DNA of 35,379 bases from Bryobacteraceae bacterium (GTDB lineage: Bacteria; Acidobacteriota; Terriglobia; Bryobacterales; Bryobacteraceae). The stretch covers positions 1 through 35,379 of the forward strand of contig JAICXC010000050.1 of assembly GCA_025980665.1 (NCBI GenBank), read 5' to 3'. Numbering within the stretch: the stretch's first letter is position 1; every line of letters begins with the position of its first letter. A program made the position numbers and the translations under genes. This document shows, piece by piece, positions 5,556 to 24,933 of this stretch. The notes below the pieces were generated by a model. That model worked only from the letters and a program-made list of their open reading frames with translations. It had not been told where the DNA came from and searched no databases.

Positions 5556-6335
5556 ATGGCGCGATTTGCCTTGCTAGTTCTGACGGCCGTGGCGATGTTC
5601 GGTCAAGCAAACCACGATCTGGGCTACGACGATATTCCCATGCTGCCCGGCCTTCCATTCCACGTTCACGATCCTAAGCGCCCGCATCCGCCCGTGGTGA
5701 CTCCCGCGGCGCAGGCCGGCGGCGCACCCTCCGATGCGATCGTGCTCTTTGATGGTAAGGACTTATCAGAATGGCAGAGCGGCAAGAGCAATTGGAAGGT
5801 GGCCAGCGGATATCTGGAAGTCGCGCCCGGCGCCGGCGATCTCGTCACCAAACAGAAATTCGGCGATGTGCAATTGCATGTCGAATGGGCCGCGCCCTTG
5901 GAAATCCGCGGCAACAGCCAGAATCGCGGTAATAGCGGGATCTACTTGCAGGGCCGCTACGAAGTGCAGGTGCTCGATTCCTACCAGAATCCGACTTATG
6001 CCGATGGGCAGGCGGGGGCGCTTTACGGGCAATGGCCGCCACTCGCCAACGCTACGCGCAAACCCGGCGAATGGCAAAGCTACGATATCGTCTTCGAGGC
6101 CCCAAAATTTGAGGCGGGCAAACTAGTCAGGCCAGCATACGCCACGGTCTTTCTCAACGGCGTTCTTTTGCACAGCCACAAAGAATTGATGGGGCCGACG
6201 GTGCATCGCCAGCTCGCGAAATACACCGCGCATCCCGCCGAGGATTCGCTGGTACTTCAGGACCATCAGCAGCCAGTGCGCTATCGCAACATTTGGATCC
6301 GCCGCTTGCGCGGTTACGATCAGCCGGAGAAATAG
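5556..6335 (+). CDS. Secreted DUF1080 (3-keto-disaccharide hydrolase-like) protein
   Basis: This 259-aa exported protein has a signal peptide at 1-18 (MARFALLVLTAVAMFGQA). It then has a DUF1080 beta-sandwich of the concanavalin-A-like fold: 'AIVLFDGKDLSEWQ', 'GDVQLHVEWAAP', 'NRGNSGIYLQGRYEVQVLDS', 'GEWQSYDIVFEAPKF' and the closing 'VRYRNIWIRRL'. Some family members hydrolyse 3-keto-glycosides, and many in planctomycetes and acidobacteria are uncharacterised. The ORF stays open upstream to 5385, but the ATG at 5556 is chosen because AGGGAGG sits at 5543-5549 and a signal peptide begins right there. The gene starts the long same-strand run of exported proteins that extends to 11694. Its stop is shared with the next start (TAGTG). 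Confidence 0.92.
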   Translation: MARFALLVLTAVAMFGQANHDLGYDDIPMLPGLPFHVHDPKRPHPPVVTPAAQAGGAPSDAIVLFDGKDLSEWQSGKSNWKVASGYLEVAPGAGDLVTKQKFGDVQLHVEWAAPLEIRGNSQNRGNSGIYLQGRYEVQVLDSYQNPTYADGQAGALYGQWPPLANATRKPGEWQSYDIVFEAPKFEAGKLVRPAYATVFLNGVLLHSHKELMGPTVHRQLAKYTAHPAEDSLVLQDHQQPVRYRNIWIRRLRGYDQPEK

Positions 6336-7102
6336 TGTTCAAGATCCTCACATTTGCGCTAGTCGTGGCGATGGCTCCCAGAGCCGCTGGGCAAGGCGAA
6401 GCCATCGAGACGGCCGAGCGCCTGAGCGCATCCGCTCCCAAAGGTCCCGCGCCGCGAACGTCTTCTGGTAAACCGGATCTTTCGGGAGTCTGGAGCCCGG
6501 ATCGCGCTTTCATCTACAACATCGAGACTGCGCTGAAGAAAGGCGAAAAGCTTCCGATCCAGCCATGGGCCGAGAAACTCGCCGCCCAGCGCATGTCGAA
6601 AGACGATCCCGAGGCGAACTGCCTGCCGACCGGCGTCCCTCGCATGGCGCCCTATCCGTGGCGGATTGTGCAAACGCCCACGCATATCTTCTTCTTGTTC
6701 GAAGGGAACATCCACAGTTATCGCCAGATCTTTCTCGGTGATCGTGAAAAAGTCGGGCGCAAGCATCCCTCCGATCTCGATCCCAGCTGGTACGGCGATT
6801 CCATCGGAAGCTGGGACGGCGATGCGTTGGTGGTCGATTCCATCGGGTTCAACGACAAATTCTGGTTCGATTTTGCGGGCCATCCGCACACCGAGCAGTT
6901 GCACATCGTCGAGCGCTTCCACCGCCCCGATCTCGGTCATTTGGATATCGAAGCCACCATCACGGATCCCGGAGCGTATACGCGACCATTTACTATGTAC
7001 GGGCACTCCGTGCTTGAGGCGAATGCCGATCTGTTCGAATATATCTGCAATGAAAATAACCAGGACGTACCACACATTACGGGCAAAGACGATCGCCGCT
7101 AG
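6335..7102 (+). CDS. Secreted protein with the shared two-cysteine periplasmic module (stand-alone copy 1)
   Basis: The protein has 255 residues when started at the GTG overlapping the upstream stop (TAGTG), which opens a signal peptide (residues 1-20, ending AAGQ). After 'GKPDLSGVWSP' (45-55) it carries a module also found in the genes at 9118 and 10765. Shared features are 'PWAEKLA', a 'DDP' followed by Cys96, a 'YGDSIGSWDGDALVV' motif, 'GHPHTEQL', 'DPGAYTRP', and a C-terminal 'YICNENN' with the second cysteine. The two cysteines could pair in the periplasm. I do not know a function. The gene overlaps the following solute-binding protein gene by 53 bases. Confidence 0.85.
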   Translation: MFKILTFALVVAMAPRAAGQGEAIETAERLSASAPKGPAPRTSSGKPDLSGVWSPDRAFIYNIETALKKGEKLPIQPWAEKLAAQRMSKDDPEANCLPTGVPRMAPYPWRIVQTPTHIFFLFEGNIHSYRQIFLGDREKVGRKHPSDLDPSWYGDSIGSWDGDALVVDSIGFNDKFWFDFAGHPHTEQLHIVERFHRPDLGHLDIEATITDPGAYTRPFTMYGHSVLEANADLFEYICNENNQDVPHITGKDDRR

Positions 7103-8123
7103 CTGCTTGCTGTTCGCGACGGTCGTCGCCGCGCAGGCCCAGACGCCCGCGCTGCGCGATATCACCATTAACTACGCCACTCGCACTGGCACCACCTGGC
7201 CGCTTTACATCGCCCAGGAAGCCGGCTATTTCGAAAAATATGGGTATCGGGCGAAGCTAGTGTTCGCAGTGCATCCGGCAGCCGTCGCGATGATCGTTAG
7301 CGGCGAAGCGCAGATGACCAACTATCCGCTGGAGCAGGCCATGCAGGCGGCTTCGAAAGATGGATCGCTGGTGATGATCGGGAGTCCTTACCGGAAGAGC
7401 TTGTTCGCGCTGATGGCTCCGAACACTTTTGCGAGCGTCAAGGATCTCAAGGGCAAACGGATCGGCGTCAGCCAGTTGGGCGACGCGCCGTACAACTATG
7501 CGGTCGGATTGCTATCGAAGTTCGGGCTGGGCCCGCGGGATGTCCAGTGGATCCCGATCGGAACTGACGTGAACGGCCGCGCCGCAGCTCTTTTGAGCGG
7601 CCGGGTGGATGCCACCATGCTCACCGCCCCCATCTATTTCAAGCTGGAGGAGAAGGGCTACAAGAGCCTGGCGAACACCAGCGATTACGACGACATCTAT
7701 GCGCCCACGGTTTACTTATATAAGAAGAGCCTCGCGACCTCCGATCCGAAGCTGCCCGAACTGATGATCAAGGTCCATGCGGAAGCCATCCAGCGCTTCT
7801 ATGAGGACAAAGCCTTCGCGGTGAAGGCATACCTCGCCTACAACAAGAACGACGATCCGGCCGATATCGCCCGCGTGTACGATCGTTACGCCAGCACCAA
7901 CACATATGAGCGCATCCCCTATCTCAAGGCGGCTGCCGTCCGGTACATGATCGACCATCCGGTGGACACGCAATCGGCCGCGCAGTTGAAGAAGTTCGAC
8001 TTCCGCACCGTGATCGACAACGCCGCGGTCGACCGCTTGGTGCGCGAAGGCTTCTTCGAGAAGCTTTACGGCCCGGCCATCAAGGCCGAAGAGGATCGCC
8101 AGGCCAAGACAGCGTTCCGGTAG
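7050..8123 (+). CDS. ABC-type substrate-binding protein, NMT1/SsuA/TauA-like (orphan)
   Basis: This 357-aa periplasmic binding protein carries an N-terminal signal (residues 1-31, with the hydrophobic run IAASCLLFATVVAAQAQ). It then shows the NMT1/THI5-like start 'INYATRTGTTWPLYIAQEAG' (40-59), 'LKGKRIGVSQLGD' and 'GRVDATML'. The family binds small molecules such as sulfonates, nitrate, taurine or pyrimidine precursors for an ABC importer. No permease or ATPase gene is adjacent, so its partner or a non-transport role is unknown. The ATG at 7050 is the only standard start that keeps the complete signal peptide, which forces a 53-base overlap with the upstream gene. The ligand cannot be deduced. 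Confidence 0.88.
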   Translation: MKITRTYHTLRAKTIAASCLLFATVVAAQAQTPALRDITINYATRTGTTWPLYIAQEAGYFEKYGYRAKLVFAVHPAAVAMIVSGEAQMTNYPLEQAMQAASKDGSLVMIGSPYRKSLFALMAPNTFASVKDLKGKRIGVSQLGDAPYNYAVGLLSKFGLGPRDVQWIPIGTDVNGRAAALLSGRVDATMLTAPIYFKLEEKGYKSLANTSDYDDIYAPTVYLYKKSLATSDPKLPELMIKVHAEAIQRFYEDKAFAVKAYLAYNKNDDPADIARVYDRYASTNTYERIPYLKAAAVRYMIDHPVDTQSAAQLKKFDFRTVIDNAAVDRLVREGFFEKLYGPAIKAEEDRQAKTAFR

Positions 8124-8166
8124 CGGTTACCTCCCTCGTCTAAACAGCGTCTTAATACAAGCACCC

Positions 8167-8195
8167 TTGACAATGCGGGCCGAAAATGTTGATCT
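8167..8195 (+). promoter_or_regulatory. Possible sigma-70 promoter (perfect -35, weak -10)
   Basis: TTGACA at 8167-8172 is followed after 17 bases by TGATCT (8190-8195). It lies in the 116-base gap before the small secreted protein gene at 8240, the largest gap inside the 5.5-11.7 kb run, so it may start a sub-operon. The -10 match is poor. Confidence 0.3.
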
Positions 8196-8239
8196 GTAAG
8201 GTACCCACCAGAACCCGTAAGGTGTGTAAGGAGAAGAAG

Positions 8240-8635
8240 ATGCGCCGCGTTGCCGCTGTTTTAGCCTGTCTTGTAGCAGGCTTTGCCCTCACCATGCTGG
8301 CCCAAGAGGGCCACCCGTTGACCGGAACCTGGCACGGTGACTACGGTACATCCCCTACCCAGCGGACCCCAATTGTTTTCCTGATGCATTGGAATAGCAA
8401 GACCGTCGAGGGCAAAATCAATCCCGGCGCCAACTCGATCCCCTTGAAGGTAGCGACCCTCGATGCGAGTAAGTGGGGCGTGCATTTTGAGGCTGATATG
8501 AAGGATGCTTCGGGCAAAGCGATGCCCATGGTTTTCGACGGAAAACTGGAGAACGTCGGTTCTTACAATCGCACGATCATCGGCACCTGGACCTCAGGGA
8601 CCCAAAAGGGCGACTTCAAGCTCACCCGCGACTGA
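8240..8635 (+). CDS. Small secreted hypothetical protein
   Basis: This 131-aa protein has a clear signal peptide (MRRVAAVLACLVAGFALTMLAQ). The mature domain is about 110 residues and predicted mainly beta: 'LTGTWHGDYG', 'VFLMHWNSKTVEGKINPG', 'WGVHFEADMKD', 'IIGTWTSGTQKGDFKLTR'. The pattern, opening and closing with 'GTW' strands, resembles small lipocalin-like or avidin-like barrels, but this is a visual impression only. The reading frame is open back to 8186, but the ATG at 8240 has AAGGAG at 8228-8233 and begins the signal peptide. It is followed 21 bases later by the dihaem cytochrome gene. Confidence 0.88.
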   Translation: MRRVAAVLACLVAGFALTMLAQEGHPLTGTWHGDYGTSPTQRTPIVFLMHWNSKTVEGKINPGANSIPLKVATLDASKWGVHFEADMKDASGKAMPMVFDGKLENVGSYNRTIIGTWTSGTQKGDFKLTRD

Positions 8636-8656
8636 CACGATTCGCGATGAACCAGA

Positions 8657-9118
8657 ATGTTGGGAAGACAAGTAGCGCTGTGGGGAATGAATCTGTTGCT
8701 TGGAGCAGCAGCGTTTGCCGCCAGCCCGCTTCCGGAAGGGCCCGGCAAGAAGACGCTCGAATCGGCCTGCTCGGCATGTCACGCCCTGGATGTCATTACC
8801 AGCAAGACCTGGGATCGGAAACAGTGGCAGGACGAGCTCGCCAAGAAGAAGGATCTCCACTTGAGCCGCGAAGAAACCATAGATCTGGTGGGCTATCTGT
8901 CCCGGCACTTCGGACCCAAGGATCGCGGCAAGGAACTGGTCCAAGAGATTTGCAGTTTTTGTCACGGTCTGGCGAAACTCCAGGGCCAGACGTACACCCG
9001 CAGCGAATGGGAGAGCGTGACGAAAGGTATGATCTTCGAAGGCGCGCCAGTGACGGAAGAAGAATATTCCTTGATTCTGGACTACCTCGAAAAGAATTAC
9101 GGAGCTGAGGAGAAGTAA
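8657..9118 (+). CDS. Periplasmic dihaem c-type cytochrome
   Basis: This 153-aa exported protein has a signal peptide (about 1-22) and two haem-attachment motifs, CSACH (38-42) and CSFCH (99-103), about 60 residues apart. The repeat layout with W-x-x...E-x-x-x-I-x-x-YL segments after each haem looks like the dihaem domain of quinohaemoprotein amine dehydrogenase alpha subunits. The first half has no methionine after the haem motif; the second has Met125, so the haem ligation may differ between halves. It presumably passes electrons in the periplasm. Its TAA stop overlaps the ATG of the next gene (TAATG), suggesting coupled translation and a functional link with the DUF6152 fusion protein. Confidence 0.93.
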   Translation: MLGRQVALWGMNLLLGAAAFAASPLPEGPGKKTLESACSACHALDVITSKTWDRKQWQDELAKKKDLHLSREETIDLVGYLSRHFGPKDRGKELVQEICSFCHGLAKLQGQTYTRSEWESVTKGMIFEGAPVTEEEYSLILDYLEKNYGAEEK

Positions 9119-10263
9119 TGACACGTAGCGCGTTCGGATTCTTCGTATTGAGTGCAGCGGCCGCAATCGCGCCCGCGTGGGCGCACCATTCTATCGCGGC
9201 CGAATACGACGAGAAGAAACCCATCACGTTACGCGGAACGGCCACTAAGTTCGACTGGACCAATCCGCACGTCTATTTGTGGATGGATGTCCGTGACGCC
9301 AGCGGAAAGACCGTCAATTGGGCGGTCGAGTACGAGAGCAAGCTGGACCTCAAACGGAGCGGCAATGGCTGGAATCGCGACATCGTCCAGGTCGGCGACA
9401 CCGTTACGGTCGAAGGAATCCTGGCTCGTGATGGAAGCAAGCAGATCAGCGGGAAATCGCTGACAACCGCGAGCGGAAAGAAAATAGCCACAGCGAATCC
9501 CGCGGCGATCAAGCTCGCCGGAACGCGCACCGGTAAAGCAGCTCCGCATTGGCCCAATGGACATGTTCGTTTGGGCGTCGTACCGGGCGGAAAGGGGTTT
9601 TGGGCCGATCCCAATCCCGTCGGCTTGTACGAAACCAGTGCCGGCAACATCCGCATGGACTACAGGGGCCAACTGGCCAATATTGCGGATGCGGGCAAAG
9701 TGGCTCCCTTCCAGCCCTGGGCCAAAGCGCTGTATGAGTATCGCCAGAAAAACAACCTGAAGGACGATCCCATGGCGTACTGCCTCCCGCCCGGGGGCCC
9801 GCGTCAATTCCAGGATCATTATGGAGTGCAGATCGTTGAGCAGCCCGACCGGAAGCGGATCTTCATCATGTCCGCGGGCGGAAATCGCAACTGGCGTATC
9901 ATCTGGCTCGACGGGCGCAAGAACCCCGAGCCGGACGATGTAACTCCAACGTACTATGGGTATTCTTCAGGGCGATGGGAAGGCGACACGCTGGTGGCCG
10001 ACACCACTGCTTTCACCGAGCGCTTTTGGTTCACCAACGGCGGTCTGCCGCATACCGAGAAACTGGCGTTGACGGAGCGGATCACCCGCCCCGATTTCGA
10101 CACGCTAAAATATGAAGTAACGGTAAACGATCCAGGGGCTTACACAAGACCGTGGACCGGCGGCTTTAGCCTGTCATGGGTTCCGGCCGACGTAGAAGAA
10201 TATTTTTGTGATGAAAGTAATCACGAGACCGAGTCCTTATCTGGCAAACACGCAACACCTTAA
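9118..10263 (+). CDS. Secreted fusion: DUF6152 domain plus shared two-cysteine periplasmic module
   Basis: This 381-aa exported protein has a signal peptide at 1-22. Residues 22-125 are a DUF6152-type domain ('AHHSIAAEYDEKKPITLRG', 'TKFDWTNPHVYLWMDV', 'VGDTVTVEGILARDGS'). Residues from about 145 are the module shared with the genes at 6335 and 10765: 'PHWPNGHVRLG', 'PWAKALYEYRQ', 'DDPMAYC' with Cys222, 'YYGYSSGRWEGDTLVADT', 'GLPHTEKLALTERITRPD', 'NDPGAYTRPW', 'EEYFCDESNHE'. This gene is the physical link showing the two domains work together, and it starts on the stop of a dihaem cytochrome gene. The domain N-terminus 'AHHS' directly after signal cleavage could be a metal site, but that is an inference. 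Biochemical function is unknown. Confidence 0.9.
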   Translation: MTRSAFGFFVLSAAAAIAPAWAHHSIAAEYDEKKPITLRGTATKFDWTNPHVYLWMDVRDASGKTVNWAVEYESKLDLKRSGNGWNRDIVQVGDTVTVEGILARDGSKQISGKSLTTASGKKIATANPAAIKLAGTRTGKAAPHWPNGHVRLGVVPGGKGFWADPNPVGLYETSAGNIRMDYRGQLANIADAGKVAPFQPWAKALYEYRQKNNLKDDPMAYCLPPGGPRQFQDHYGVQIVEQPDRKRIFIMSAGGNRNWRIIWLDGRKNPEPDDVTPTYYGYSSGRWEGDTLVADTTAFTERFWFTNGGLPHTEKLALTERITRPDFDTLKYEVTVNDPGAYTRPWTGGFSLSWVPADVEEYFCDESNHETESLSGKHATP

Positions 10264-10291
10264 GTTAAGCTTGAGCACACCCAAAGGAGAC

Positions 10292-10699
10292 ATGACCATG
10301 AGACTGCGCGCATTTGCGATTTTGGGAGTAACTGGCGTGCTGATGGCGGCGGCTCCGCTGCTGGCGCACCATTCCTTCGCGGCCGAGTATGATGCCAAAA
10401 AGCCCATTGAGCTGAAGGGCACCATTACCAAGGTCGACTGGATGAATCCGCACGTGTATTTCTACATAGACGTGAAAGACGAGGGCGGCAAAATCGCCAA
10501 CTGGGCGTTCGAGATGGGTCCTCCCAGGCTCCTGGAACGCGGTGGCTGGAAGAAGAGCACCATGAAGGAAGGCGATGAAGTCATCGTCAGCGGGACCCTT
10601 GCCAAGGATGGCGGGAAGCATGGCAACGCGCGCTCTGTGACGCTTGCCAATACCGGGCAGAAATTGGGCGGCGCCTCGAGCGAAGGCACCATTCCGTAG
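10292..10699 (+). CDS. Secreted DUF6152 domain protein
   Basis: This 135-aa protein has a signal peptide (about 1-26, ending 'APLLA') and a single DUF6152 domain. It is a close paralogue of the N-terminal half of the upstream fusion protein: 'HHSFAAEYDAKKPIELKG', 'TKVDWMNPHVYFYIDVKDEG', 'EGDEVIVSGTLAKDG'. The ORF is open upstream to 10208, but the ATG at 10292 is preceded by AAAGGAG at 10283-10289 and opens the signal peptide; an ATG at 10298 is a minor alternative. The mature N-terminus would begin close to 'HHS'. The family has no established function. The position between the fusion gene and a stand-alone module gene supports a common complex or pathway. Confidence 0.92.
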   Translation: MTMRLRAFAILGVTGVLMAAAPLLAHHSFAAEYDAKKPIELKGTITKVDWMNPHVYFYIDVKDEGGKIANWAFEMGPPRLLERGGWKKSTMKEGDEVIVSGTLAKDGGKHGNARSVTLANTGQKLGGASSEGTIP

Positions 10700-10764
10700 A
10701 TCTTTGAAGTATTTTGTCTGCGCGGTGGTCGAGGTGTCTATACAGTGCAGTAGGGAGGGTCGAA

Positions 10765-11694
10765 GTGCGAAAACGTGAATTCGTTGGCTGGGCCGCAATC
10801 GCAACCGCGGCGTTGATTTTCTCAGTGGCCGCGCCCTCCTTTGGGCAGAATGGCGGCACTCCCAACGCAGGCAAGGATAATGGCGTGGGGCAGGGAATCA
10901 TCCCACCTCCCCCTCGCGGAGTTCCGAATCCGGGCCAGGGGCAAGGCAAAGGCAGGGGTAGGGCCAAGCGCGGGCCATCCCGCCCGACTCCGCATGGTCC
11001 TGACGGGCACGTGCTGCTAGGTCCACTGCCCGGTGAAGGCGGCGTCTGGAATGGCGGCGCCGGCTCGACTCTCTTCAGTAGCGGACGTGGCGGCATTGAC
11101 AACGCGCTTACCAACGCACCGGTGAACCTCAAAGTTGAAGATGTACCTTTCCAGGATTGGGCGCGCGCTCTTTACGAATCGCGGCGTGCCAACAACACTG
11201 CGGACGATCCGCACGTACGTTGCAAGTCCTCGGGCGGCCCACGGCTATTTCACACGCCTTACGGATTTGAGATCGTCGATATCCCCGAGCTAGAACGCAT
11301 TTACATAATGGGTGTTGGCGGCCCGCACACCTATCGCACGATCTATATGGATGGCCGGGAGCGTCCCAAGGACATCGATCCGAGTTTCCATGGCTATTCG
11401 ATCGGGCACTGGGAAGGCGAAAAACTGGTGGTGGAGACCACTAACTACAACCAGCGATTCTGGATCAGCCGCGAAGGCCCCCCGACCACAGAACTGCTGA
11501 AGATGACGGAAACCTTCGAGCGCCCCGAATACGATACGTTGCGCTACATCGCCACCATCGACGATCCGGGCGCTTACACCGCTAAGTGGTCGGGCGGCTG
11601 GGCGATTCCATGGAACGCCAACGACGAGATGTACGAATACATCTGCCAGGAAAACAATCGCGACGCGAAGCACATGTTCCGCGGCGAACAGTAG
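10765..11694 (+). CDS. Secreted protein with Gly/Pro-rich linker and shared two-cysteine module (stand-alone copy 2)
   Basis: The protein is 309 aa from the GTG at 10765, chosen because AGGGAGG lies at 10752-10758 and a signal peptide (1-28, ending SFGQ) follows. Residues about 30-78 form a Gly/Pro/Lys/Arg-rich low-complexity linker ('IIPPPPRGVPNPGQGQGKG'). From 'PHGPDGHVLLGPLPG' on, it is colinear with the C-terminal part of the 9118 fusion: 'WARALYESRRAN', 'DDPHVRC', 'FHGYSIGHWEGEKLVVET', 'DDPGAYTAKW', 'YEYICQENNRD'. The paired cysteines are conserved. The gene ends the same-strand run and stops only 4 bases before the convergent response-regulator gene. Function is unknown. Confidence 0.87.
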   Translation: MRKREFVGWAAIATAALIFSVAAPSFGQNGGTPNAGKDNGVGQGIIPPPPRGVPNPGQGQGKGRGRAKRGPSRPTPHGPDGHVLLGPLPGEGGVWNGGAGSTLFSSGRGGIDNALTNAPVNLKVEDVPFQDWARALYESRRANNTADDPHVRCKSSGGPRLFHTPYGFEIVDIPELERIYIMGVGGPHTYRTIYMDGRERPKDIDPSFHGYSIGHWEGEKLVVETTNYNQRFWISREGPPTTELLKMTETFERPEYDTLRYIATIDDPGAYTAKWSGGWAIPWNANDEMYEYICQENNRDAKHMFRGEQ

Positions 11695-19454: not shown

Positions 19455-20309
19455 ATGCGACGCAGAGATTTTCTACCTGCATTAGCCGCGCCGCTCGCGC
19501 TCGCGCAAAATACAGGAATCGTTCCGCCGGTCCAAAGAAAGGGCCGCATCAAGCAAGGCATCACGCGCGGCGTCTTCGCCCGCGAAATGAGCATGGAGGA
19601 CTGCTGCCGCGAGGCCGCGCGCCTCGGCATCAAAGGATTCGATCTGGTCGGACCAGCCGACTGGCCTCTGCTCAAGAAGTACGGACTGGTGCCCTCGATG
19701 TATCCGCTCGGCCCCGGCGGGACCATCGCCGATGCTTTGAACACTCCGGCGAATCACGCCAAGCTCGAAGCATCGCTGCGCGCGGCCATCGACGAATCGG
19801 CGGCCGCCGGCGTGCCGAACGTGATCACGTTTTCGGGAAATCGGCGCGGCATGGACGATCGCGTGGGAGCGGACAACTGCGTGGCGTTTCTCAACAAAGT
19901 CAAAGCCCAGGCGGAGGACAAAGGCGTCACCATCTGCATGGAGTACTTGAATAGCAAAGTGAACCACAAGGACTACATGTTCGATCACATCGGCTGGGGT
20001 GTCGATGTGATGAAGCGCGTGAACTCGCCGCGCGTGAAGATCCTGTTCGACATTTATCACGCGCAGATCATGGACGGCGATATCGTGCGCAACATTCGCG
20101 ATAACTTCCAATGGATCGCGCACTTCCACACTGGCGGCAATCCCGGCCGTCACGACATCGACGATTCTCAGGAGTTGAACTATCGTTTCATTATGCAAGC
20201 CATCGCGGATTTGGGGTTCACTGGGTTCGTCTCGCACGAGTACAGCCCAGCTCCAGGGCACGATCCAATCGCTACCCTGAACAAGGCAATCGAGATATGC
20301 GACGTCTGA
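19455..20309 (+). CDS. Hydroxypyruvate isomerase-like TIM-barrel protein
   Basis: This 284-aa protein is of the xylose-isomerase/AP-endonuclease-2-like TIM-barrel superfamily, hydroxypyruvate isomerase branch. It has 'CCREAARLGIKGFDLVGP', the acidic metal-site strands 'VTICMEYLNSKVNHKDY' and 'KILFDIYHAQIMDGDI', 'WIAHFHTGGNPGRHDID', and 'GFTGFVSHEYSPA' with the last glutamate. The N-terminus 'MRRRDFLPALAAPLALAQ' reads as a short twin-arginine-type export signal, so the enzyme is probably periplasmic rather than cytosolic. Members isomerise hydroxypyruvate/tartronate semialdehyde or sugar ketoses; the real substrate is open. AGGAGG lies just upstream of the ATG. It overlaps the next cytochrome gene by 13 bases. 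Confidence 0.88.
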   Translation: MRRRDFLPALAAPLALAQNTGIVPPVQRKGRIKQGITRGVFAREMSMEDCCREAARLGIKGFDLVGPADWPLLKKYGLVPSMYPLGPGGTIADALNTPANHAKLEASLRAAIDESAAAGVPNVITFSGNRRGMDDRVGADNCVAFLNKVKAQAEDKGVTICMEYLNSKVNHKDYMFDHIGWGVDVMKRVNSPRVKILFDIYHAQIMDGDIVRNIRDNFQWIAHFHTGGNPGRHDIDDSQELNYRFIMQAIADLGFTGFVSHEYSPAPGHDPIATLNKAIEICDV

Positions 20310-21049
20310 TCTTGCTGGTCTTGGGTTCGTTTTGTCAGCACGCGTTTGGACAAGCCGGACCCTATGTACGCCAGCAGGTGGACCCCGCGGCTGCGGATCG
20401 CGGCAAGCGCGTCTACACTCAGTTCTGTATCAACTGCCACGGAGCGCTGGCGAAAGGCACTGAACAAGGGCCGGATCTCATTCGTTCTCCTTTGGTGCTG
20501 CGCGATCGCCTGGGTAATGAGATCGGACCGGCGCTCAAGAAACTCGCGAATCACAAGACGGACCTGACGAACGCGCAGGTGGCCGACCTCACGCATTTTC
20601 TCAAAGACCAGATCGAAGCGACGGCCAAGAATCGCAATCCTGAGCATCCTCCTAATGTGCTCACGGGCAATTTGGAAGCCGGGCGAGCTTATTTTAATGG
20701 TGCTGGTAAGTGCAATACGTGTCACTCACCTTCGGGTGACTTGGCTGGAGTCGGGCGCAAATATAGCCCGATCGACCTGCAGCAGCGTTTCCTGTTCCCA
20801 CGCCGAAGTAAACCGCTCCAGGTCACGGTGACGCCTTCGGGCGGCCAGCTCGTCACGGGATCTCTCGAGCGCATTGACGATTTCAGCGTCGCTCTGCGCG
20901 ATGCCACTGGAGAATATCGTGCCTTTACGCGCGGCCCCAATGTGAAGGTGGACATTGACGACCCGCTGACGGTGCACAATCAGATGCTCGATGCTTACAC
21001 CGACCAGGACATGCATAACGTGGTCCGATACCTGGAGTCGCTCAAGTGA
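20297..21049 (+). CDS. Periplasmic dihaem c-type cytochrome with interrupted second domain
   Basis: This 250-aa exported protein has a signal peptide (1-19, ending FGQ) and haem motifs CINCH (44-48) and CNTCH (139-143). There is no methionine between about residues 48 and 229, so the first haem lacks an evident Met ligand; His86 or His100 are candidates. Between the second haem and the final helix ('DMHNVVRYLESLK') a beta-rich insert of about 55 residues ('VTVTPSGGQLVTGSLERI', 'DFSVALRDATGEYRAF') interrupts the cytochrome fold. The ATG at 20297 lies inside the upstream gene, and its TGA overlaps the GTG of the PQQ dehydrogenase, so it is very probably that enzyme's electron acceptor. Confidence 0.93.
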   Translation: MRRLILLVLGSFCQHAFGQAGPYVRQQVDPAAADRGKRVYTQFCINCHGALAKGTEQGPDLIRSPLVLRDRLGNEIGPALKKLANHKTDLTNAQVADLTHFLKDQIEATAKNRNPEHPPNVLTGNLEAGRAYFNGAGKCNTCHSPSGDLAGVGRKYSPIDLQQRFLFPRRSKPLQVTVTPSGGQLVTGSLERIDDFSVALRDATGEYRAFTRGPNVKVDIDDPLTVHNQMLDAYTDQDMHNVVRYLESLK

Positions 21050-22614
21050 ATCGGCTCGCCGTCTTCCTATTTGCTGTTAGTACGTTTGGACAAACGACTT
21101 TCCCCCAAGCATGGCCCAGCTACAATGGCGACACCTCCGGCCGCCGCTACAGCAGCCTTTCGAAAATCAACCAGTCGAATATCAATTCGTTGCCGCTCGC
21201 CTGGGTTTATCGCGTGAATCCCGGTCGCGCTCCGCAGGCCGGCGGCGGGAATGTCAACACCACCATCAAGGGAACGCCCGTGGTCGTGAACGGGGTGCTC
21301 TATACGACAATCCCGGATCACGTATGGGCCATCGACGCGCGCACCGGTCGCGAGATCTGGCATTATGTGTGGCCATCTAAGGGCGGATGGCACATCGGCA
21401 ATCGCGGTGTGGCGGTTCTGCGTGAAATGGTGTACGTCGAAACTCCAGACTGCAACTTGGTCGCGCTGAACTCGAAAAATGGAAAGGAAAAGTGGCATAC
21501 GCAGATCTGCGACCTGGAGCAGTTCTACTATGCCTCCGTTGCTCCCGTCATCGTAAAGAATCACGTGATCACCGGCGTCAGTGGCGACGATCTGGATATT
21601 CCCGGCTATATCGAATCGCACGATCCCGATACCGGGGCACTGCAATGGCGGTGGTACGCGCATCCCGAGCCGGGCAGTCCTGAAGCCAAGACCTGGCCAA
21701 GCGTCGAAGCTATGATGCACGGCGGCGGAATGACCTGGGTGCCTAGCACTTACGATCCCGATCTGAATCTCCTATACTTCGGCACGGGCAACCCGCAGCC
21801 GGTGATCGCTGGGCAGGGCCGCGAAGGATCGAACCTGTACACGGAGTGCATCATTGCCCTAAATCCTGATACAGGCAACCTGGCGTGGTACTTCCAACCC
21901 TCGCCGCACGATACGCACGACTGGGATGCGGTGCAGACGCCAGTACTTTTCGATGGCGAGATCAACGGACAACCCAGGAAGCTTCTGGCGCAAGCCAGCC
22001 GAAACGGGTGGTTCTTCGTGCTCGATCGCGCCACCGGCAAGAACGTCTCAAGCAGCGAGTTCGTCAAGACCAACTGGACCCTCGGCGTCGATGCGAAGGG
22101 CCAGCCGATTCCGAATCCAGCCAAGCAGCCTAAGCTCGATGGCGCACTGGTGACGCCCAACCAGGGTGGAGCGATCAACTGGCCCTCGCCTAGTTTCAAC
22201 CCCGAGACTGGATTGTTCTACGCCAACGCTGCCCGCGCCTGGAGTGTGTACTACGTTTACGATGACGACGACAAACCCGAGGGGTGGGGTGGCAACGATC
22301 GCAGCGGTGTCTCCGAAGCGATGCTCCAGGCGATCGATTACAAAACCGGAAAGATTCGCTGGAGCCATAAATGGCCGGGCAATGGCGGCGGCGTCCGATC
22401 GGGACTGCTGAGCACAGCGGGGAAACTTTTGTTCGCCGGCGATCCAAGCTCGAACTTCGTAGCCCTGGATCCCGCCACCGGTGAGCCGCTGTGGCACGCG
22501 GTCCTGCATACGGTGGTCAGCAACGGTCCGATCACCTATGAACTCGACGGGGTTCAATATTTAGTGGTGGGTGCCGGGGATACGCTGTATGCGTTCGCCA
22601 TGCGAGCCCGCTAA
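21046..22614 (+). CDS. PQQ-dependent dehydrogenase (soluble periplasmic quinoprotein) with Asp-x-Asp metal motif
   Basis: This 522-aa exported quinoprotein has a short signal (about 1-16) and an eight-bladed propeller: 'SYNGDTSGRRYSSLSKINQS', repeated 'ALNPDTGNLAWYFQPSPHD'-type blades, and a C-terminal 'GVQYLVVGAGDTLYAF'. It should oxidise an alcohol, aldose or polyol and pass electrons to cytochrome c. In the active-site segment 'PHDTHDWDAVQ', Asp292 matches the catalytic Asp and Asp294 the extra Asp of lanthanide-dependent enzymes. The usual metal-ligand Glu of this family appears replaced by Asp182 ('VSGDDLDIPG'). No adjacent Cys-Cys pair is seen. GTG overlaps the cytochrome stop (GTGA). 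No pqq biosynthesis genes are in the window. Confidence 0.94.
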   Translation: MNRLAVFLFAVSTFGQTTFPQAWPSYNGDTSGRRYSSLSKINQSNINSLPLAWVYRVNPGRAPQAGGGNVNTTIKGTPVVVNGVLYTTIPDHVWAIDARTGREIWHYVWPSKGGWHIGNRGVAVLREMVYVETPDCNLVALNSKNGKEKWHTQICDLEQFYYASVAPVIVKNHVITGVSGDDLDIPGYIESHDPDTGALQWRWYAHPEPGSPEAKTWPSVEAMMHGGGMTWVPSTYDPDLNLLYFGTGNPQPVIAGQGREGSNLYTECIIALNPDTGNLAWYFQPSPHDTHDWDAVQTPVLFDGEINGQPRKLLAQASRNGWFFVLDRATGKNVSSSEFVKTNWTLGVDAKGQPIPNPAKQPKLDGALVTPNQGGAINWPSPSFNPETGLFYANAARAWSVYYVYDDDDKPEGWGGNDRSGVSEAMLQAIDYKTGKIRWSHKWPGNGGGVRSGLLSTAGKLLFAGDPSSNFVALDPATGEPLWHAVLHTVVSNGPITYELDGVQYLVVGAGDTLYAFAMRAR

Positions 22615-24291: not shown

Positions 24292-24933
24292 ATGAGATCG
24301 CTCATTCACCTCCGCTTGGCTGCGATCTTATTCCTTGCGGTTTTCCCCATTGCCAAGGTGCACGGGCAGGTTCTGGAGTTCGAATCCGGAGGCTTGAAAT
24401 ACAAAGCGCTGACGCGTGGCGGTGTAACCATCATGTTCGCCCCGCTTCCCACGCGAGTACTGGGCTACACCATCTTACAGGTTGCCATCTCCAACGGTTC
24501 GCCGGTGTCCTGGAGTTTTAAGCCGGAAGACTTCCGGTTCGAGCGGGACGATGGCCAGCGGATTCAAGCTGTGTCGGCCGGAACCGTGGTTAAGCAGCTA
24601 CTGGATCACGCCAGCCGGGGAGATGTCGGGCGGTTGATCAGCGCCTACGAAGCGGCGCTGTTTGGCAACGCACATGTACGTTCCACCAACGGTTACGAAT
24701 CGCGGCGGCAGGACTACCTGGCCCTGGGCTCGACCAAGCTGAAAGCCGCATCGGCAGCCTCGGCGATCGCGCTGGTGACGACCAAGCTCTCATCTGGACA
24801 ATCCACTGACGGCGCCGTGTTTTATCCCAGCAAGGGCAAGCCATTAGGCGCGGGAAAGCTGATTGTCGAAGCGGCGGCCGAGACATTTGAATTCCCGGTG
24901 GAAGCGGAGCCGCAATCCCGAGCCTCTCGATAA
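24292..24933 (+). CDS. Secreted hypothetical protein
   Basis: This 213-aa exported protein has a signal peptide at about 1-25 (ends KVHGQ). An N-terminal beta domain ('GLKYKALTRGGVTIMFAPLP', 'YTILQVAISNGSPVSW', 'FKPEDFRFERDDGQ') is followed by an Ala/Lys-rich helical segment (about 95-165) and a last strand region ('GAVFYPSKGKPLGAGKLIV', 'ETFEFPVEAE'). The pattern resembles DUF4352-like or immunoglobulin-like extracellular domains, but I cannot name a family. The ATG lies 9 bases after TATGAT. It is convergent with the ygfZ gene, 9 bases away. Confidence 0.85.
   Translation: MRSLIHLRLAAILFLAVFPIAKVHGQVLEFESGGLKYKALTRGGVTIMFAPLPTRVLGYTILQVAISNGSPVSWSFKPEDFRFERDDGQRIQAVSAGTVVKQLLDHASRGDVGRLISAYEAALFGNAHVRSTNGYESRRQDYLALGSTKLKAASAASAIALVTTKLSSGQSTDGAVFYPSKGKPLGAGKLIVEAAAETFEFPVEAEPQSRASR

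Follow-up and report, generated by a model that had tools for sequence, protein, structure and literature searches.

DUF6152 and an undescribed exported module recur together in Acidobacteria and hint at a periplasmic metal-handling system

Introduction

In a 35,379-nucleotide stretch of a Bryobacteraceae genome (GenBank assembly GCA_025980665.1, contig JAICXC010000050.1, positions 1 to 35,379; hereafter the window), three genes for exported-looking proteins carry copies of one sequence module and lie among genes for DUF6152 and for a dihaem cytochrome c. What might these proteins do, and which of them belong together? A first-pass annotation proposed that the module was undescribed and that module, DUF6152 and cytochrome formed a complex, perhaps in a redox pathway. 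By following these genes through the source assembly (5.04 Mb in 214 contigs, 89% complete) and through other bacteria, we find that module and DUF6152 recur together without the cytochrome, and that a membrane protein family overlooked in that annotation, DUF6644, accompanies DUF6152. The probable His-His start of mature DUF6152 and the expansion of the module hint that these are periplasmic proteins for handling metal, of a family so far unrecognised.

Results

The modules of the genes starting at 6335, 9118 and 10765 are colinear over 194 alignment columns, the second sharing 46% and the third 42% identity with the first copy, which confirms that all three genes share one module (Table 1). 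Its position behind DUF6152 in the 9118 gene, and the separate DUF6152 protein at 10292, were also correctly read, since PF19649 (DUF6152) matches the N-terminal part of the former at E 2.3e-26 (92.2 bits) and the latter at E 3.2e-30 (104.5 bits), both above the 27-bit cut-off. The reported overlap of the fusion gene with the cytochrome gene, which encodes two CxxCH motifs, amounts to one base shared by ATG and TAA. Two further descriptions held in part. The N-termini of all these proteins resemble signal peptides as judged by eye rather than by a predictor, which is consistent with their proposed export. Among the motifs listed for the module, the two cysteines, G.S.G.W.GD, DP and C.E are conserved in an alignment of 115 rows, and “PHTE” and the “GAYT” of “DPGAYT” are variable.

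The likeness of the three window copies is above chance: a profile built from them matches 110 places in the source genome, those three included, and the Pfam model of DUF6152 matches 47; a few of these places are pieces of a single gene. In 70 stretches of that genome around these matches plus the window, a further profile gave 112 module open reading frames (ORFs) and 46 DUF6152 ORFs, three of them fusions; after gene calling, 111 module genes remained, as did 42 of the 43 DUF6152 genes that stand alone. Median pairwise identity between modules is 34% (105 near-complete rows), the two cysteines are conserved at 99% and 100% (115 rows), and two modules occur within one ORF in three cases in these stretches. 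The module matches no family of Pfam, NCBIfam or PHROGs, other hits being at chance level (PADLOC and InterPro lay outside the search). Likewise, for 60 sequences of the wider family, of which 12 are fusions, Pfam and NCBIfam showed only DUF6152 and chance-level matches, and module profiles found nothing beyond chance among PDB sequences. We therefore rejected a known family as the identity of the module, which in these libraries is undescribed, as first suggested. Passages of a paper on gene duplication in Solibacter (PMC3174227) make no mention of such a family. The module also appears in a metagenome-assembled genome labelled Bordetella parapertussis (L146), a label that looks doubtful, and module-like frames occur in three IMG/VR contigs (L197-L199) that are possibly host DNA.

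Module genes lie beside DUF6152 genes more often than shuffled labels would place them. A same-strand module gene is the immediate neighbour of 32 of the 42 solo DUF6152 genes, with gaps of -99 to 113 bases; when the 42 labels were shuffled over all 983 genes of these stretches other than module genes (2,000 trials), adjacency averaged 5.1 and reached at most 13. The two domains are fused in 14 genes at 13 loci, three of these genes being in the source genome and 11 in 94 other loci. Of 247 genomes from the phylum, 31 have the module and 31 have DUF6152, and 30 of the 32 that hold either hold both, in counts uncorrected for kinship; the exceptions are G080, with the module only, and G171, with DUF6152 only. 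Gene order, fusions and co-occurrence thus bear out the association between the two. Co-occurrence was weak in 369 genomes of the class to which the Pseudomonadales host of locus L165 belongs (module in 4, DUF6152 in 8, both in 2). Half of the 80 named loci retrieved via the module (40) hold DUF6152 in the fetched stretch, some stretches being shortened by contig ends, and the two also stand side by side on sphingomonad plasmids. On a Croceibacterium plasmid (L200), two genes with G8 domains flank the DUF6152 and module genes, one on each side.

The window arrangement of fusion, DUF6152 and module recurs in that order in a second copy in the source genome (L041) and in L125, L148, L165, L169 and L185, and a fusion followed by a module occurs in L170, L182 and L184. 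Records of these loci carry the labels Bryobacterales, Acidobacteria, Pseudomonadales, Candidatus Rariloculus, Terriglobia and Gammaproteobacteria, so the window order is found in other phyla too. The small gene that precedes the cytochrome gene in the window, also overlooked in the first-pass annotation, has relatives in 10 of the 13 loci with a fusion, the window included. In the window, L041, L125, L165, L169 and L185, it lies upstream and on the same strand, in L148, L182 and L184 it follows the module, and in L170 it is divergent; at E 1e-5 none was found in fusion loci L059, L121 and L177. Five fusion-free loci (L132, L133, L152, L196 and L232) also hold a relative.

The cytochrome behaves differently from these four genes. 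Its sequence found no match at E 1e-5 among the ORFs of the 94 related loci, and CxxCH proteins are not enriched among immediate neighbours (6 of 192 vs. 31 of all 941 other genes of the stretches). Since the small gene, fusion, DUF6152 and module recur and the cytochrome does not, the recurring unit excludes it; as far as these loci show, a cytochrome gene between the small gene and the fusion is confined to the window copy. The cytochrome first proposed as a component was accordingly ruled out as a partner. As a SorB candidate it scored 53.3 bits on NF052246, below the cut-off of 93. Elsewhere in the source genome, another DUF6152 gene lies beside a cytochrome gene whose product is 36% identical to that of the window (L065, 8145-8958).

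Two features of DUF6152 stand out in the alignment. In 108 of 114 distinct domains, A/G/S/C-His-His at the start occurs together with the histidine of an NPH motif; by column, each start histidine is present in 107 of 108 rows and the NPH histidine in 110 of the 112 rows having a residue there. The six exceptions comprise three truncated or partial frames and three fusions. All three fusions lack His-His and two also lack NPH, which L041 retains, and an intact DUF6152 gene lies beside each. The two histidines follow the signal-like segment in nearly all copies, with cleavage placed by eye rather than by a predictor, so the mature protein probably begins with them. Even the very divergent DUF6152 of Sinorhizobium meliloti retains AYA|HHG and a PPH.

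We modelled the mature fusion protein of the window with AlphaFold2 (AF2) from a 65-row alignment (mean predicted local distance difference test score 90.1, predicted template modelling score 0.81). Its best Foldseek matches in the PDB are proteins of the oligonucleotide/oligosaccharide-binding (OB) fold, PriB, SSB and LysRS among them, and an OB fold is accordingly predicted for the DUF6152 domain. The top 50 Foldseek matches in the PDB and BFVD appear to be dominated by this domain rather than by the module. The GxW of the module's first strand may point to a likeness to lipocalins.

DUF6644 is a small membrane protein family that gave 16 matches in the source genome, 14 of them above cut-off. 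Many are tandem pairs with DUF6152 or module genes close by on the same contigs, the C55 pair being the exception, and one histidine is invariant (31 of the 31 rows having a residue there). Among the 247 genomes of the phylum, DUF6644 scores above cut-off in 31, which are exactly the 31 with DUF6152; G125, G143 and G229 have weak matches below cut-off. The pairing extends further. On Novosphingobium and Sphingobium plasmids, DUF6644 lies within about 5 kb of the module, and on pSymB of S. meliloti, the DUF6152 and DUF6644 genes overlap by one base; no Sinorhizobium plasmid matched the module query. In the 369-genome sample, Pfam found DUF6644 in 4 genomes, two of them above cut-off, all among the 8 with DUF6152. 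With a more sensitive profile, five of the six module-free genomes (G369, G408, G493, G498 and G559) proved to have a DUF6644-like gene next to DUF6152, the one in G369 apparently being spread across two frames.

In four of these neighbourhoods, scanned in part, the neighbours include a FecCD permease and an ABC ATPase in G369 and G493, whose neighbourhoods look alike, a DUF748 protein in G408 and, in G498, a DUF411 protein bearing a CxCC motif. The permease, ATPase and DUF411 genes are possible metal genes. The CxCC motif presumably links DUF411 to CopG; the passages of PMC7558416 that describe CopG do not name DUF411. Three of six DUF6644 proteins scanned scored on CopD (PF05425) below cut-off (E 1e-4 to 6e-4, 20.6-22.9 bits vs. 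32.1), which is suggestive of kinship with CopD and was unconfirmed by hhalign.

Table 1. Module, DUF6152 and adjoining genes of the window
Feature	Position	Strand	Basis and remarks
Solo module gene	6335..7102	+	Module alignment and three-copy profile; GTG start overlaps preceding stop
Small exported-looking protein	8225..8635	+	GHPLTGTW.GD; recurring cassette member; nothing above chance in Pfam
Dihaem cytochrome c	8657..9118	+	Two CxxCH; SorB-like below cut-off; between small gene and fusion; non-recurring
Fusion gene	9118..10263	+	Pfam, AF2 model; signal-like segment, DUF6152 (HHS at 9184), NPH histidine, module
DUF6152 domain of fusion	9184..9498	+	Predicted OB fold; begins at presumed mature His-His
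Module of fusion	9700..10260	+	Alignment, profile, AF2 model
Solo DUF6152 gene	10292..10699	+	Pfam; HHS at 10367
Solo module gene	10765..11694	+	Long G/P-rich stretch behind signal-like segment

Several other genes of the window are of separate interest. A molybdopterin oxidoreductase (1297-2478), an NMT1/SsuA-like binding protein (7050-8123) and the SorB-like cytochrome (8657-9118, below cut-off) share one stretch, perhaps with a sulfite or sulfonate theme. A cytochrome c gene is followed by a gene of the acido-empty-quinoprotein group A (TIGR04528, 812 bits) at 20111-22614, and positions 24292-24933 encode an exported-looking protein of 213 amino acids that matched no Pfam family at E 0.001.

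Discussion

From the module family and its fusions, and from gene order, co-occurrence and the residues conserved, we build a reading that we favour tentatively: DUF6152 may be a periplasmic metal protein of the N-terminal-histidine kind that works with DUF6644, and the module may be the specificity part of each copy. Signal peptidase would cut DUF6152 to leave a mature chain with a His-His start on an OB barrel, where the terminal amine, these histidines and the NPH histidine could form a metal site. Copper is our preference, by analogy and on account of a single DUF411 neighbour, with nickel or another metal as possible alternatives. DUF6644, with its invariant histidine, would be the membrane partner, and the two together would form a basic unit that captures periplasmic metal and passes it on to the inner membrane or across it. 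To this pair, Acidobacteria and some Proteobacteria would have added the module as an exported partner family, a two-cysteine domain that may bind whatever each DUF6152 serves, be it a ligand, a metal complex or a client protein. We infer such recognition from the number, divergence and fusions of modules, and a role in specificity would explain their expansion to about 110 divergent copies. Positions 8225-11694 of the window are one copy of a recurring cassette of small protein, fusion, DUF6152 and module, here with the cytochrome gene after the first. In favour of the reading are the joint conservation of His-His and NPH, kept in similar form by the divergent S. meliloti protein, the fusion model with its OB-fold matches, the identical genome distribution of DUF6152 and DUF6644 and their adjacency in module-free genomes, the possible metal genes beside such pairs, the CopD scores below cut-off, and the adjacency of DUF6152 and module genes.

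Several known systems resemble the proposed one in part. Histidine-brace and related metal sites combine a histidine at the N-terminus with a second one (PMC10952591, PMC8424229). A 2025 search for N-terminal-histidine metalloproteins, as far as its main text goes, reports DUF4198, DUF6702 and anglerases, and DUF6152 is absent from that text (PMC12537917). These proteins are exported and combine an N-terminal histidine with further ligands, as is predicted for DUF6152, and anglerases are appended to membrane permeases; DUF6702 and anglerases are described there as beta-sandwiches, whereas an OB barrel is predicted for DUF6152. CopC-CopD and YcnI-YcnJ (PMC8424229, PMC7558416) pair a periplasmic copper protein with a membrane protein encoded alongside it, comparable to the proposed DUF6152-DUF6644 unit, and YcnI has an N-terminal monohistidine brace (PMC8424229). 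However, DUF6152 matches neither CopC nor DUF1775, and DUF6644 stays below the CopD cut-off. DUF6152 also differs from lytic polysaccharide monooxygenases (PMC10952591, PMC7924993), having no match to their family and a different predicted fold. Both PF19649 (DUF6152) and PF20349 (DUF6644), which the domains and neighbours described here match above cut-off, are Pfam families without an assigned function. The pairing of DUF6152 with DUF6644 and the His-His/NPH pattern come from the present analysis; full-text literature searches for DUF6152, PF19649 and DUF6644 returned no paper.

Several results weigh against this reading. Homologues without DUF6152 nearby, which the first-pass annotation had named as evidence against its proposal, do occur in part: of the 111 module genes, 76 have neither a fused DUF6152 nor an immediately adjacent DUF6152 gene on the same strand. 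We had forecast DUF6644 in all 8 DUF6152 genomes of the 369-genome sample, and Pfam gave half of them; even with the more sensitive profile, G391 has no DUF6644-like gene beside DUF6152. The three DUF6644 proteins that scored on CopD came from a CopD search, the other three scanned did not hit CopD, and comparison of DUF6644 and CopD by hhalign returned probabilities of 1.4% and 4.9%. No metal-transport family was recognised in the recurrent neighbour clusters of the source genome, few of which were scanned. Among the DUF6152 proteins scanned, Pfam hits included no CopC, DUF1775 or lytic polysaccharide monooxygenase family, and Foldseek of the fusion model gave no hit at E <= 1e-3.

The modules could instead be extracytoplasmic binding proteins for catabolic substrates, with DUF6152 a structural or assembly partner whose histidines serve folding or interaction. 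A large, divergent, exported-looking family would suit such a role, as would the many modules apart from DUF6152, the tannase and metallo-beta-lactamase-fold genes among the neighbours, and the fusion of modules to other domains, namely a metallo-beta-lactamase (Lactamase_B; one ORF, L108, 7722-9599) and CarboxypepD_reg (one ORF). However, the joint conservation of HH and NPH and the identical genome profile of DUF6644 suggest a chemical role for DUF6152, and we consider this alternative possible but somewhat unlikely.

Alternatively, DUF6152 and the module could form a two-part exported metallo-oxidase or oxygenase, in which the histidine site activates O2 or peroxide in the manner of histidine-brace enzymes, the module binds an organic substrate and each paralogue serves a substrate of its own. 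His-His with NPH, the DUF6152-module fusions and the divergence of module copies are consistent with this, and the tannase and metallo-beta-lactamase-fold neighbours would fit, together with a recurrent neighbour cluster of 11 genes in 9 stretches that by eye resembles pyrroloquinoline quinone-type quinoproteins. Still, DUF6152-DUF6644 is present where no module was found, which makes the pair independent of the module, the predicted OB fold is unlike that of known histidine-brace oxygenases, and CxxCH proteins are not enriched; we regard the oxidase as unlikely. Its broadest form, an unrecognised class of secreted N-terminal-histidine metalloenzymes on an OB fold, with the module as exchangeable substrate-recognition part, about 100 copies in some soil Acidobacteria and an unannotated layer of periplasmic oxidative chemistry, seems quite improbable to us. 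The redox complex first proposed, in which module and DUF6152 join a dihaem cytochrome, is highly improbable: overlapping genes in the window and the other DUF6152 beside a related cytochrome speak for it, and the 94 loci without a cytochrome match and the CxxCH counts speak against it.

Returning to the metal-protein reading, DUF6152 and DUF6644, two Pfam families so far without an assigned function, acquire through their link a common role that can be tested, and the His-His/NPH pattern yields a concrete prediction of metal binding for DUF6152. With 110 matches to the module and 47 to DUF6152 in 5 Mb, we estimate that about 3% of the genes of one soil bacterium encode proteins unexplained by the libraries searched. 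If the reading is true, some soil Acidobacteria would hold a large, unseen periplasmic system for metal handling or metal-dependent chemistry.

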